NCBI RefSeq assembly: GCF_002232035.1
Contig: NZ_NKXR01000001.1
Location: 132,574-196,573, forward strand
Length of the DNA: 64,000 nucleotides
DNA from: Collinsella sp. TF06-26
GTDB lineage: Bacteria > Actinomycetota > Coriobacteriia > Coriobacteriales > Coriobacteriaceae
Reading direction: 5' to 3'
Below are positions 2,550 to 6,920 of this stretch, one piece after another. Position 1 is the first letter of the stretch. The number at the start of each line of letters is the position of its first letter. Below the pieces are notes generated by a model. The model searched no databases, was not told the origin of the DNA, and worked only from the letters and a program-made list of their open reading frames with translations. Both the position numbers and the translations under genes were made by a program.

Positions 2550-4013
2550 CTAGCGCACCCCCTTCAGTGGTCCCTCGACCAGCCAAGATCCAGCATCTTC
2601 CAACAGCACTTCGCTGGGGTCGCAGCCCAGCTCGCGGGCAAGGATCGCAACCACGCGGCTCTGGCAAAAGCCGCTCTGGCACCGACCCATGCCCGCACGG
2701 CAGCGCCGCTTGACGCCCTCGACCGAAACCGCACCCGGGCGGCGTCGAATCGCGGCCACGATCTCGGCCTCGGGCACTGTCTCGCAGCGGCAGACGATCT
2801 GCCCCCATGCAGGGTCGGACTCAATGAGCTCCTCCTTGCGTGCAAGCGGCGTACGGTCGAAGTCGTCCGGCGCGTGTCGAATCGGATCCCAATCGGCCCG
2901 TTCGCGCAAAGCAACGCCCGCCTCGCGCATCACGTGCTCCATGCGCTCGGCAATGGCCGGCGCGCTCGCCACGCCTGGCGACTGAATGCCCGCCGCCTGG
3001 AACAGGCCTGGCACCACGGCGGACTGCCCAATAAAGAAGTCGTTTGTTCCCTGAATGACCGGACGCCCGCCGGCAAACGCGCGCACCACGCGGCGCGTGT
3101 CCAGATCGGGCACCAGCTTGCGTGCTCCCGTCAGCAGCGCGTTCACATCGCTTGCGTAGGTCTGCGTGTCGCCCGGCTCGCGCACGGCAGCCGTCGCGGT
3201 GATCACGGTGTTGCCGTGGACCGTGCCCGTGACGATTACGCCCTTGGACACTGGCGTGGGCACGGGGTAGAGCGGCATGAGCGCGCGCGGCTCCTTGTCC
3301 AGCACCACGATGTTGCCCTGGCGCCAGACCATCTGGAACTCCTCGGCGCCCGCCATATGCGAGATGTCCGCTGCACCGTTGCCCGCGGCGTTGATCAGAT
3401 AGCGGCAGCGCACATCGCCGACAGGCGTCACCAGCGTAAAGCGCGCAGCCCCGTCGGTAGCCTCGCCGCCGGCAACCTCAATTGCTTCCACCGGAGCCGA
3501 CCGAATAAACGTCACGCCGTTGGCCACGGCGTTCTCCAGCGCAGCGATGGCGACCTCAAACGGATCCACAAAGCCAGTGGAGGGACACCACAGCGCGCAC
3601 GTCGCCTCGGCACTCGCGCGTGGTTCCAGCTCGCGGATGCGCTCGGGGCCGATAATCGACAGTTCGGGCACGCCGTTGGCCACGCCATTCTGGCGCAGCT
3701 TCTCCAGGTGTGCGCGGTCTTCGTCGTTAAACCCCAGCACCATCGAACCGGTGCGGCAAAACAAAAAGCCGAGCTCCTGGGCCCACGTGCCATATAGCTC
3801 GCAGCCGCGGGCGTTGACCTGCGCCTTTACGGTGCCCGGCGCCGGATCGTAGCCGGCGTGTACCAGGCCGCCGTTGGCCTTCGATGCGCCTAGGGCGACA
3901 TCGTTGGCCGCCTCGACCACGCAAATGGTCAGGTCATAGCGCGCGAGTTGCCGCGCAATGGCACACCCGGTGATGCCCGCGCCCACAACCGCGATATCAA
4001 ACGTTTCTGTCAC
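2550..4013 (-). CDS. GlpA-like FAD-dependent dehydrogenase with C-terminal [2Fe-2S] BFD-like domain
   Basis: A 487-residue protein starting at GTG 4013 behind a GGGAGG ribosome site. Residues about 7-22 (VVGAGITGCAIARQLA) are the FAD motif of the D-amino-acid-oxidase / glycerol-3-phosphate dehydrogenase fold. The last 80 residues carry Cys408, Cys410, Cys438, Cys445 and Cys450 (CRCETV ... GRCQSGFC), typical of a BFD-like [2Fe-2S] domain as in anaerobic GlpA. The likely role is oxidation of glycerol-3-phosphate or a similar 2-hydroxy acid, passing electrons to the partner flavoprotein. L-2-hydroxyglutarate oxidase-type enzymes share the N-terminal fold, so the substrate is open. First gene of the operon; a perfect palindrome lies 18 bases upstream of its start. 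Confidence 0.85.
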   Translation of the reverse strand: MTETFDIAVVGAGITGCAIARQLARYDLTICVVEAANDVALGASKANGGLVHAGYDPAPGTVKAQVNARGCELYGTWAQELGFLFCRTGSMVLGFNDEDRAHLEKLRQNGVANGVPELSIIGPERIRELEPRASAEATCALWCPSTGFVDPFEVAIAALENAVANGVTFIRSAPVEAIEVAGGEATDGAARFTLVTPVGDVRCRYLINAAGNGAADISHMAGAEEFQMVWRQGNIVVLDKEPRALMPLYPVPTPVSKGVIVTGTVHGNTVITATAAVREPGDTQTYASDVNALLTGARKLVPDLDTRRVVRAFAGGRPVIQGTNDFFIGQSAVVPGLFQAAGIQSPGVASAPAIAERMEHVMREAGVALRERADWDPIRHAPDDFDRTPLARKEELIESDPAWGQIVCRCETVPEAEIVAAIRRRPGAVSVEGVKRRCRAGMGRCQSGFCQSRVVAILARELGCDPSEVLLEDAGSWLVEGPLKGVR

Positions 4014-4045: not shown

Positions 4046-4182
4046 TAAGACTATCCTACGGCCTGCACATCCCCAGTGCGGCGGCAATGCGGCGAACAGC
4101 CCCGCAACACCCGCCAACGGCAGGCGAGGGGAGACTCGGCAACGTCGACAACCTCGTCTGCCAACAACTACGGCAACCGTTC

Positions 4183-4399
4183 GTCTCAATCTGTAACAGT
4201 TAGCAGAGGATTTGGGTTGTAGATGTTACAGATCAAGACAAACCTTCCGACGGATTTTGAATGTCTCGATCTGTAACAGTAAGAGGGGTTTTGGGGCTCA
4301 AGATGTTACAGATCGAGATTGAAGTCGGGGAGGGACCCCTGTGTCTCGATCTGTAACACCTAGACCCTTATTTGCCGAGTAACTGTTACAGATTGAGAT
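4183..4399. repeat. Array of six alternating 16-mers, exact 80-bp period
   Basis: Three copies of a 57-nt palindromic unit start at 4183, 4263 and 4343. Each has a left arm close to GTCTCGATCTGTAACA and a right arm close to TGTTACAGATCGAGAT (4224, 4304, 4384). Loops are always 25 nt and gaps between units always 23 nt, so the same 16-mer recurs in alternating orientation every 39-41 bases. Arms match at 14-16 of 16 positions, while loops and gaps have diverged. It fills most of the space between two divergent genes. No cas genes are near and the units are too few for a CRISPR array. It may be a tandem palindromic repeat family, a multi-site operator or a folded RNA. Confidence 0.85.
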
Positions 4400-4500
4400 G
4401 TTTGTGTCCACGGTGGCCGCCGGGCCCCACCAGGGTCCCGCTCGAACGACCCCCGTGTTACACTAAACCGGACTATAAATAATCCGAAAGGTACACCTCA

Positions 4501-4932
4501 ATGTCCAAATACATCAACGAGCTCATGTCGCCGCAGCTTATGGGCGTCATCTATGCCTTCGTGGGCTTTATCATCGCCCTGTACGTGCTGTCGGTCGTCT
4601 ATGTGTTCATCGACGCTCGCCGCCGCGGCGCCAGCGCCTACGTGGCATGGGGCATCATCGCCCTCATCCCGTTTGTGGGCCTCATCGCCTACCTGGTCCT
4701 GCGTCCGCACTCCTACGCGGCCGACCGCGAGGAGCAGGAGCTTGACATGGCCCTGCGCGAGCGCCAGCTTGCCCAGTACGGCACCTGCCCGCAGTGCGGC
4801 GCGCCCATCGAGAAGGACTTTGTGGTCTGCCCGGTGTGCGACACCCAGGTTCGTAACGTCTGCCCCAGCTGCCATCGCCCGCTCGATGCGCACTGGAAGG
4901 TCTGCCCCTACTGCCGAACTCGCATCCAGTAA
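4501..4932 (+). CDS. Membrane-anchored double zinc-ribbon protein
   Basis: A 143-residue protein. Two predicted membrane helices (about 13-35 and 47-67) are joined by a short positively charged turn (DARRRGAS). A cytoplasmic charged stretch follows, then two CxxC...CxxC zinc ribbons (CPQCGAPIEKDFVVCPVC and CPSCHRPLDAHWKVCPYC). The protein ends right after the second ribbon. Double zinc ribbons of this kind mediate protein or nucleic-acid contacts; the specific role is unknown. A TATAAA box lies 22 bases before the start and an AAAGG site 11 bases before it. It stands as a single gene ahead of thrS. Confidence 0.8.
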   Translation: MSKYINELMSPQLMGVIYAFVGFIIALYVLSVVYVFIDARRRGASAYVAWGIIALIPFVGLIAYLVLRPHSYAADREEQELDMALRERQLAQYGTCPQCGAPIEKDFVVCPVCDTQVRNVCPSCHRPLDAHWKVCPYCRTRIQ

Positions 4933-5156: not shown

Positions 5157-6920
5157 ATGAAGGCACTCTACAATGACGGTTCGGTGGCCGAGCTCCCGCA
5201 GGACGAGGTCACGCACGTCATCCGCCACTCTGCCGCGCACATCATGGCGCAGGCCATCAAGCGTCTGTACCCCCAGGCCGACTTTGCCTACGGTCCCGCG
5301 ACCGACAACGGCTTCTACTACGACGTCGACCTGCCCGAGGGCGTCAAGATCAGCGAGGACGACTTCCCCGCGATCGAGGCCGAGATGAAGAAGATCGTCA
5401 AGGAGAACCTCAAGTTTTCCGTGTACGAGAAGCCCCGCGCCGAGGCCATCGCCCTTATGGAGGAGCGCGGCGAGAAGTACAAGGTCGAGCACATCGGCGA
5501 CCTGGACGACGACGCCCGTATCACCTTCTACCAGCAGGGCGACTACATCGACATGTGCGTCGGCCCCCACATCTGCTACACCAAGGCGCTGAAGGCCTTT
5601 AAGCTCACTGGCGTCTCGGGCGCTTACTGGAAGGGCGACAAGGACAACAAGATGCTCACCCGCATCAACGGCGTCGCCTTTGCCACCAAGGAAGAGCTCG
5701 ACGAGCACATGCACATGCTGGAGGAGGCCAAGAAGCGCGACCACCGCAAGATCGGCCGCGAGATGGACCTCTTTATGATGCGCGACGAGGCCCCCGGCTT
5801 CCCGTTCTTCCTGCCTAATGGCATGATTCTTAAGAACACGCTGCTGGACTACTGGCGCGAGATCCACCACAAGGCCGGTTACGTGGAGATCTCCACGCCG
5901 CTTATCATGAACAAGCAGCTGTGGAAGACCTCGGGCCACTGGGACCACTACAAGGACAACATGTACTCCACCGTCATCGACGACGAAGAGTACTGCATTA
6001 AGCCCATGAACTGCCCGGGCGGCGTGCTGGTGTACGCCTCCAAGCCGCACTCCTACCGCGAGCTGCCCATCCGCGCCGGCGAGATTGGCCTGGTGCACCG
6101 CCACGAGCTGCGCGGCGCCCTGCACGGCCTGTTCCGCGTGCGCTGCTTTAACCAGGACGACGCCCACCTGTTTGTGCGTCCCGACCAGCTGACCGACGAG
6201 ATCGTGGGCGTGGTCAACCTCATCGACTCCGTGTACCAGAAGTTTGGCTTTAAGTACCACGTTGAGCTTTCCACCCGCCCCGAGGACTCCATGGGTTCGG
6301 ACGAGGATTGGGCTCGCGCCGAGGAGGGCCTGCGCACCGCTCTGGAGAAGCTGGGCATGGACTACGAGGTCAACGAGGGCGACGGCGCCTTCTACGGCCC
6401 CAAGATCGACTTCCACCTGGAGGACTCGCTCGGTCGTACCTGGCAGTGCGGCACCGTCCAGCTCGACTTCCAGATGCCGCTCAACTTTGACCTGGAGTAC
6501 GTGGACGCCGACGGCACCAAGAAGCGCCCCATTATGCTGCACCGCGTGTGCTTTGGCTCCATCGAGCGCTTCATCGGCATTCTGATTGAGCACTTTGCGG
6601 GCAAGTTCCCCACCTGGCTGGCTCCCGTTCAGGTCAAGGCACTTCCGGTTTCCGAGAAGAGCCGTGACTACGCCCACGAGGTGTGCGCCAAGCTGGAGGA
6701 GGCCGGCATCCGCGTGGTCTGCGACGACCGCGACGAGAAGATCGGCTACAAGATCCGCGAGGCCCGCAGCATCGACCGCGTGCCCTACATGCTCATCCTG
6801 GGCGAGAAGGAGGTCGAGGCCGGCAACATCTCCGTCCGCGATCGTTCCAACGAGACCGTTCAGATGAGCGTTGACGAGTTTGTGGCCAAGGTACTCGAGG
6901 AGATCAAGACCCGCGCCTAA
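5157..6920 (+). CDS. thrS: Threonyl-tRNA synthetase lacking the N-terminal TGS domain
   Basis: A 587-residue class II synthetase that charges tRNA-Thr. It starts almost directly with the editing domain: HSAAH at residues 24-28 and the Cys motif in DMCVGPHI. The catalytic domain follows (MNCPGG, RxGEIGLVHRHE with motif 2, and FGSIERFIG motif 3), then the anticodon-binding domain (KIGYKIREARSIDRVPYMLILG). Usual ThrRS is about 640 residues with a TGS/ubiquitin-like domain of about 60 residues first. That domain is absent, and the start chosen has a strong GAGGAG site at a normal distance, so this is not a start error. TGS-less forms occur in other bacteria. Confidence 0.97.
   Translation: MKALYNDGSVAELPQDEVTHVIRHSAAHIMAQAIKRLYPQADFAYGPATDNGFYYDVDLPEGVKISEDDFPAIEAEMKKIVKENLKFSVYEKPRAEAIALMEERGEKYKVEHIGDLDDDARITFYQQGDYIDMCVGPHICYTKALKAFKLTGVSGAYWKGDKDNKMLTRINGVAFATKEELDEHMHMLEEAKKRDHRKIGREMDLFMMRDEAPGFPFFLPNGMILKNTLLDYWREIHHKAGYVEISTPLIMNKQLWKTSGHWDHYKDNMYSTVIDDEEYCIKPMNCPGGVLVYASKPHSYRELPIRAGEIGLVHRHELRGALHGLFRVRCFNQDDAHLFVRPDQLTDEIVGVVNLIDSVYQKFGFKYHVELSTRPEDSMGSDEDWARAEEGLRTALEKLGMDYEVNEGDGAFYGPKIDFHLEDSLGRTWQCGTVQLDFQMPLNFDLEYVDADGTKKRPIMLHRVCFGSIERFIGILIEHFAGKFPTWLAPVQVKALPVSEKSRDYAHEVCAKLEEAGIRVVCDDRDEKIGYKIREARSIDRVPYMLILGEKEVEAGNISVRDRSNETVQMSVDEFVAKVLEEIKTRA

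Follow-up and report, generated by a model that had tools for sequence, protein, structure and literature searches.

A clade-restricted family of exactly spaced inverted-repeat arrays in Collinsella: a candidate platform for an architectural DNA-binding protein

A 64-kb stretch of the Collinsella sp. TF06-26 genome (64,000 nucleotides, called the window throughout) was found to contain one array of three regularly spaced inverted-repeat units, which belongs to a family dispersed over the genomes of a single Collinsella clade. The array is, with moderate confidence, a double-stranded DNA platform for a candidate architectural protein, with a layout like that of BIMEs. This reading is preferred because the site appears to be double-stranded DNA, read by letters in the arms and by base class in the loop, held in a fixed geometry, present in two or more units and independent of orientation. 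Comparison among genomes bears out a family with a fixed geometry and a restriction to one clade, lacking hairpin covariation, constrained in the base class of its loops and neutral to gene context.

Geometry and distribution of the arrays

The units of the window array were found to start at 4183, 4263 and 4343 with an exact 80-bp period. Each unit of 57 nt contained a 16-nt arm, a 25-nt loop and an inverted 16-nt arm, and successive units were separated by 23-nt gaps. These coordinates and lengths, first given by a sequence-only reading of the window, were reproduced exactly. The conserved unit extended about 3 bp outside each arm as A/T-only positions. The array was located within a 487-bp gap between a GlpA-like flavoprotein gene and a zinc-ribbon gene, and the features of the locus are as follows.

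2550..4013, minus strand: left neighbour, FAD-dependent oxidoreductase with a BFD-like [2Fe-2S] domain (GlpA-like); start codon 170 bp from the array
4180..4182, with the matching triplet 4400-4402: outer A/T-rich triplet of the extended unit; conservation ends outside it at the array ends
4183..4239: unit 1, arm 4183-4198, loop 4199-4223 (25 nt), inverted arm 4224-4239
4240..4262: gap 1, 23 nt
4263..4319: unit 2, arm 4263-4278, loop 4279-4303, inverted arm 4304-4319
4320..4342: gap 2, 23 nt
4343..4399: unit 3, arm 4343-4358, loop 4359-4383, inverted arm 4384-4399
4501..4932, plus strand: right neighbour, small protein with a double zinc ribbon and a PLDc_N-like N-terminus; start 102 bp from the array

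The word GATCTGTAACA was found six times in the 64-kb window at no more than one mismatch, all six matches being the arms of this array; dinucleotide shuffles of the window contained 0.54 ± 0.73 matches and never six. A de novo scan, set to find inverted arms that recur at 55-140 bp, yielded only the window array in the 64-kb window, whereas 300 kb of a second array-bearing genome contained five arrays, all belonging to this family. The same scan of 800 kb from two array-free Collinsella genomes yielded no arrays, whatever the arm sequence.

The source genome (2.26 Mb) is fragmented into 41 contigs, and its array stretches were read individually. A search at no more than three mismatches returned 48 units, and the reading of the stretches gave about 52, distributed over 19 intergenic arrays with a spacing of always 80 or 81 bp between units. 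Two units were contained in nine of the arrays, three in seven, four in two and five in one. The sequence-only reading had held that units scattered singly at random spacings would make the array a chance cluster; all units of the source genome lay in 80/81-bp arrays, and no single unit was listed at three mismatches or fewer. A zero-truncated Poisson distribution with the same mean (our own arithmetic) would place about a fifth of the arrays at one unit. Since single units were absent, two units seem to be the smallest functional number; this point is no more than suggestive, one hybrid single unit being present in genome G014. Over all loci examined, the loop was 25 nt long in 206 of 210 distinct units and the gap 23 or 24 nt in 134 of 135, and the claim that spacing is kept as sequence drifts was upheld. 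Successive half-sites were found 41 bp apart across the loop and 39-40 bp apart across the gap, near four helical turns in both cases, which fits the earlier suggestion of alternating DNA sites about four turns apart.

Orthologous loci were anchored on the zinc-ribbon protein, from whose orthologues the species names were also taken; those at least 97% identical belonged to C. aerofaciens and close unnamed Collinsella. The array was kept at the window locus in 18 of 18 named C. aerofaciens-group orthologous loci, one of them clipped by a contig end, whereas the loci of other Collinsella and of Enorma (zinc-ribbon identity at most 87%) contained no array there. A comparison of copy number and spacing, proposed by the sequence-only reading as a check among strains, gave among relatives 2-8 units at the window locus, varying in register by whole 80-bp steps, and a sharp split of whole genomes into those with 24-65 units and those with 0-2. 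The array-bearing genomes form one Collinsella clade, and among 398 genomes of the class the units were found in one of 153 genera and in none of the other 152. The species compared are related, and such counts are those of non-independent events.

Some of the genomes with 0-2 units could be accounted for. Two genomes outside the clade were found to contain one near-perfect unit and no array, so that an isolated unit can persist as a passenger, at least briefly. G028 (C. stercoris-like; L140) and G031 (L137) each contained one unit upstream of clpB, within sequence that almost matches the corresponding region of the source genome. The zinc-ribbon proteins of these two genomes are only 78 and 85% identical to the source protein, and recent horizontal transfer of the near-identical clpB region is therefore likely from the sequences; an ancestral solo site at clpB was rejected in its favour. 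In G013 a single unit was observed at a contig end beside tRNA-Met and a putative AlbA-type gene (L139); it shares its loop with source array L007, likewise beside tRNA-Met, and was possibly carried in with a genomic island. A phage or plasmid origin of the family was rejected: the arrays were found in one IMG/VR contig (0.9 kb from the start of the examined stretch) and one 0.9-Mb 'plasmid', and in none of the phage records. The latter, 'plasmid 6' of C. aerofaciens TSDC17.2-1.1 (NZ_OY725717.1; L110), contains the core genes gltB and Nramp together with 31 array pieces and looks like a mislabelled chromosome.

Turnover and genomic context

The loops of the window locus were found to be orthologous across species, and short arrays resembled long ones minus whole units. 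The loop of unit 2, GTAAGAGGGGTTTTGGGGCTCAAGA, was recognisable at the orthologous locus in several other species (L030, L031, L035, L036, L038, L043). Within one array the loops were unlike each other (mean identity 0.46), and no recent tandem duplication was seen inside arrays, the loops and gaps being all different. In G014 one hybrid unit (L178:1857) was found in place of two neighbouring source arrays (L011:526-2100), with loss of the intervening DNA; its left half resembles one source array and its right half the other, as would be expected from recombination between the two.

The array upstream of glmS was present in four of 23 genomes, the source included, and absent in 19. The empty alleles contained at least two different junctions inside REP-like palindromes that flank the array where it is present. 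This second palindromic repeat, about AACCACCACRAAGGGGACAGGCACCTTTGTGGTGGTTT, was found to flank some arrays (L008:5001-5033 and 5230-5262; L009:4952; L006:6075; and upstream of glmS in L124, L129 and L130). When this one locus was checked for target-site duplication, the empty alleles were found to fit deletion between the flanking palindromes, with no clean empty site seen, and from the sequences such deletions appear to have removed the glmS array in several species. In G011 (L122) the last part of a coding sequence for a transposase-like integrase was found in the glmS upstream region, at the place that the palindromes occupy in other species. Arrays are thus dispensable at a given place and seem mostly to shrink or vanish.

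A neutral origin, in which the units are non-autonomous mobile palindromes of the REP/BIME or MITE type, have no host function and owe their regularity to the amplification mechanism, is unlikely but is the strongest of the rivals. The arrays are dispersed, intergenic, alternating in orientation and clade-specific, as are BIMEs (PMC2817692); Y1-type transposases were present in every array-bearing genome tested, and some loop halves recurred in non-orthologous arrays. However, Y1 proteins were also present in most array-free genomes, and none of ten Y1-transposase loci (PF01797; six array-bearing genomes) contained arms within about 3 kb, on which ground mobilisation by Y1 transposases was rejected. 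The units are not selected as hairpins, the all-different loops and gaps leave no recent tandem copies, and the single array-minus locus examined looks deleted rather than inserted. Neutral copies, moreover, would not hold arms, loop length and base class while the letters randomise. An autonomous element with the arms as its terminal inverted repeats, which a MITE would require, was not seen among the matches listed from an arm search of the source genome and 44 congeners. The source-genome matches listed outside arrays were scattered single one-mismatch arms, about as many as with a reversed-pattern control.

BIMEs consist of regularly spaced alternating repeats and bind gyrase, IHF and Pol I (PMC2817692). 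The Collinsella arrays share with BIME-2/REP elements the dispersed intergenic position, the alternating orientation, the regular spacing, the clade specificity and the variable number of units. In contrast to these elements, the repeated Collinsella word is itself not a palindrome, the spacers are all different yet class-coded, the spacing is exact to the base and pairing is not selected. A cognate RAYT flanked by the repeats, a mark of REP/BIME systems, was not found at ten loci of six array-bearing Collinsella genomes, by a PF01797 search that could miss some RAYTs. REP/BIME copy number usually exceeds 100 per genome, whereas the source genome contained about 52 units and its relatives 24-65. 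The GTAG/CGTC-type tag at the end of a 20-40 nt REP palindrome was absent from the unit ends of the Collinsella profile; the TAG seen at loop positions 12-14 lies inside the unit and is degenerate. The layout is closest to that of BIMEs, while three defining REP features (pairing selection, a flanking RAYT and high copy number) fail; the arrays may have a BIME-like function although they are not BIMEs.

Gene orientation was taken from a simple codon-model gene caller. The 19 arrays were found in six convergent, six divergent and seven tandem gene gaps. As a baseline, the gaps no shorter than 60 bp in 300 kb sampled from G014 were 16% convergent, 23% divergent and 61% tandem. The arrays do not avoid convergent gaps, and promoters or operators are therefore not the common denominator. 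The neighbours were unrelated core genes, including glmS, clpB, tuf, prfC, dxs, thiD and glycogen phosphorylase (names partly from reading the sequences), and in the hypothetical proteins beside arrays neither a Pfam domain nor any hint of DNA binding was found. The placement of the window array between flavoprotein and zinc-ribbon genes, on which the sequence-only reading had remarked, is correct, but these neighbours are incidental, about 19 arrays lying beside unrelated genes. Both the terminator and the regulon readings fit poorly with such mixed contexts beside unrelated core genes. Multi-site operators of a transcription factor, which would join the arrays into a regulon, are quite improbable: the half-sites are inverted with a cooperative-looking spacing and several arrays precede a start codon by 100-250 bp (the window array and those of clpB, glmS and prfC), but six of the 19 lie between convergent genes, the neighbours have no functional theme, and the glmS array is missing from most genomes.

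GC skew and dnaA placed the origin near 1.73 Mb in G014. Targeting to the terminus or origin is not claimed: the arrays of G014 were missing from a stretch near ter, but in G060 the distances to the origin were roughly even. No clear chromosome-wide positional bias of the arrays was found.

Base-class constraint within the unit

Substitutions were counted in loop-matched pairs of units (loops 64-96% identical). The arm core was found to contain 0.038 substitutions per site, the outer TCT 0.010, the loops about 0.13-0.24 and the outer A/T flank 0.34, so that the arms change at about one fifth of the rate of the loops; the pairs were picked by loop similarity, which conditions the loop rates and makes the arm/loop contrast a rough guide. 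This comparison of sequences indicates purifying selection on the arms. Position -1 was occupied by a purine (G or A) on essentially every half-site, and 87 of 89 changes there were transitions.

The G or A state at position -1 was found to be independent on the two arms of a unit (A-T 23, G-C 22, A-C 21, G-T 20). Pairing of the arms in RNA or single-stranded DNA is unlikely, because A-C would then be expected to be rarer on at least one strand. At the inner ten loop positions, complementarity of a loop half to its own partner was 316 of 880, compared with 368 ± 13 for swapped halves (z about -4). After the units were oriented by their A-tract, the anti-complementarity had a z of about -3 and the G/C block alone was no longer significant; part of the effect thus arises from the polarity that the A-tract gives each unit, a polarity that was inconsistent among units within arrays. 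The independent arm states, together with loop halves that match each other less well than swapped ones do, point to double-stranded DNA rather than an RNA hairpin as the object under selection.

Among 88 non-redundant units, G/C made up 78% of loop positions 7-10 from either arm, C and G being present in similar numbers. The central five positions were 17% G/C, and in them AA (77) and TT (144) steps were far more frequent than TA steps (15). The highest mutual information was found between adjacent A/T columns. Peaks of A/T were present at 0, 10, about 21 and 31 bp from the unit centre; the cosine score was highest in that range at 10.0-10.25 bp, on a profile that is not a clean sinusoid. The 'diverged spacers' of the sequence-only reading were therefore correct as to letters, which differ, but not as to base class, which is constrained into G/C blocks and a central A-tract. 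Randomised letters with a kept class and length would be the signature expected of indirect readout of DNA shape. A link of A-tracts and curved DNA to nucleoid proteins has been discussed (PMC3940949). With phased A-tracts and curved DNA the Collinsella loops share the A-tracts and the alternation of A/T and G/C near a 10-bp phase; unlike them, the Collinsella units contain long conserved sequence-specific half-sites in a fixed 80-bp unit.

The alternative that the arrays act as RNA hairpins (terminators, mRNA stabilisers or small RNAs) is very improbable. Single units fold at -17 to -27 kcal/mol with z from -3.4 to -9.4, but the inverted arms by themselves account for this stability. At the variable arm position no covariation was found, the loops are anti-complementary, no terminator-like T-run was found inside the array, no match reached the Rfam gathering score and no consistent orientation relative to genes was present. 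The hairpin reading was rejected in spite of the good folding energy, on the missing covariation and the anti-complementary loops, and the 'three equal RNA hairpins' offered by the sequence-only reading are contradicted by the independent arm states and the less-than-chance loop complementarity. Least credible of all is a role as the target of a shufflon- or resolvase-like site-specific recombinase, for which the inverted arms and the in-register recombination of arrays (unit losses, and the G014 unit joining arrays a and b) could be cited, but the units recognisable at the window locus keep their orientation across species and so give no sign of inversion, in-register loss is also the outcome of ordinary homologous or slippage events between repeats, and no recombinase gene was found tied to the arrays.

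Proposed architecture and significance

Tandem arrays of other kinds were also compared. Iteron and plasmid centromere arrays are tandem protein-binding sites with a fixed period. In contrast, the Collinsella arrays are about 20 in number, chromosomal, beside core genes and built of inverted rather than direct sites, and no Rep or Par genes were seen beside them. CRISPR arrays share the conserved repeats, the unlike spacers and the high regularity, whereas the Collinsella arrays contain an inverted pair per period, class-coded spacers of 23-25 nt, loops that are orthologous across species, and a dispersed arrangement. The statement of the sequence-only reading that this is no CRISPR array holds, given the two inverted arms per period and no evidence of spacer acquisition. 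No earlier description of such repeats was found in the portion of the open-access literature covered.

In the preferred reading, that of an architectural platform, each array would be composed of 2-8 tandem copies of a symmetric site, each copy being two inverted half-sites of about WWYRTCTCRATCTGTAACANNWRG. The protein envisaged is sequence-specific and probably acts as a dimer or a larger oligomer; it would grip the half-sites on one face, some 41 bp from each other. The intervening 25 bp would be selected for bendability, with the central A-tract, the flanking G/C blocks and A/T again at ±10 bp, and not for particular letters, and the 80/81-bp repeat would let neighbouring complexes touch in a fixed geometry. 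From the sequence patterns we infer protein binding, DNA bending and the importance of contact between units. Arrays of at least two units would then be dispersed intergenic platforms that organise the chromosome or buffer its supercoiling, much as BIMEs may do; this chromosome-organising role is speculative. Counted against the architectural reading are the loss of arrays (glmS), the solo units outside the clade, the lack of a clear chromosomal bias, and the failure to detect HU/IHF-type proteins, the most evident candidates for a bender, in the genus.

HU/IHF-type proteins (PF00216) were found in none of 45 Collinsella genomes and in nine of 14 control genomes, by a search that could miss a divergent form; HU/IHF was rejected as the binder, as it was not detected in the genus. 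A more specific form of the architectural reading is put forward tentatively, as a possibility on the doubtful side: a dedicated protein of the C. aerofaciens group would wrap the units and polymerise along arrays of at least two, as a lineage-specific scaffold replacing or adding to HU-type architecture. Under this form, wrapping and polymerisation would place the spelling of the site under constraint by base class and exact spacing.

The arrays form a natural ruler of DNA geometry, with about 50 independent variants per genome in two dozen species, in which spacing and class are kept and letters are lost, and they make indirect readout and inter-site phasing directly testable. Should the arrays prove ordinary, they would still be a fixed genus-specific source of in-register deletions for strain typing. 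On the architectural reading, they mark a probable new protein that binds the chromosome of a bacterium among the most common in the human gut.
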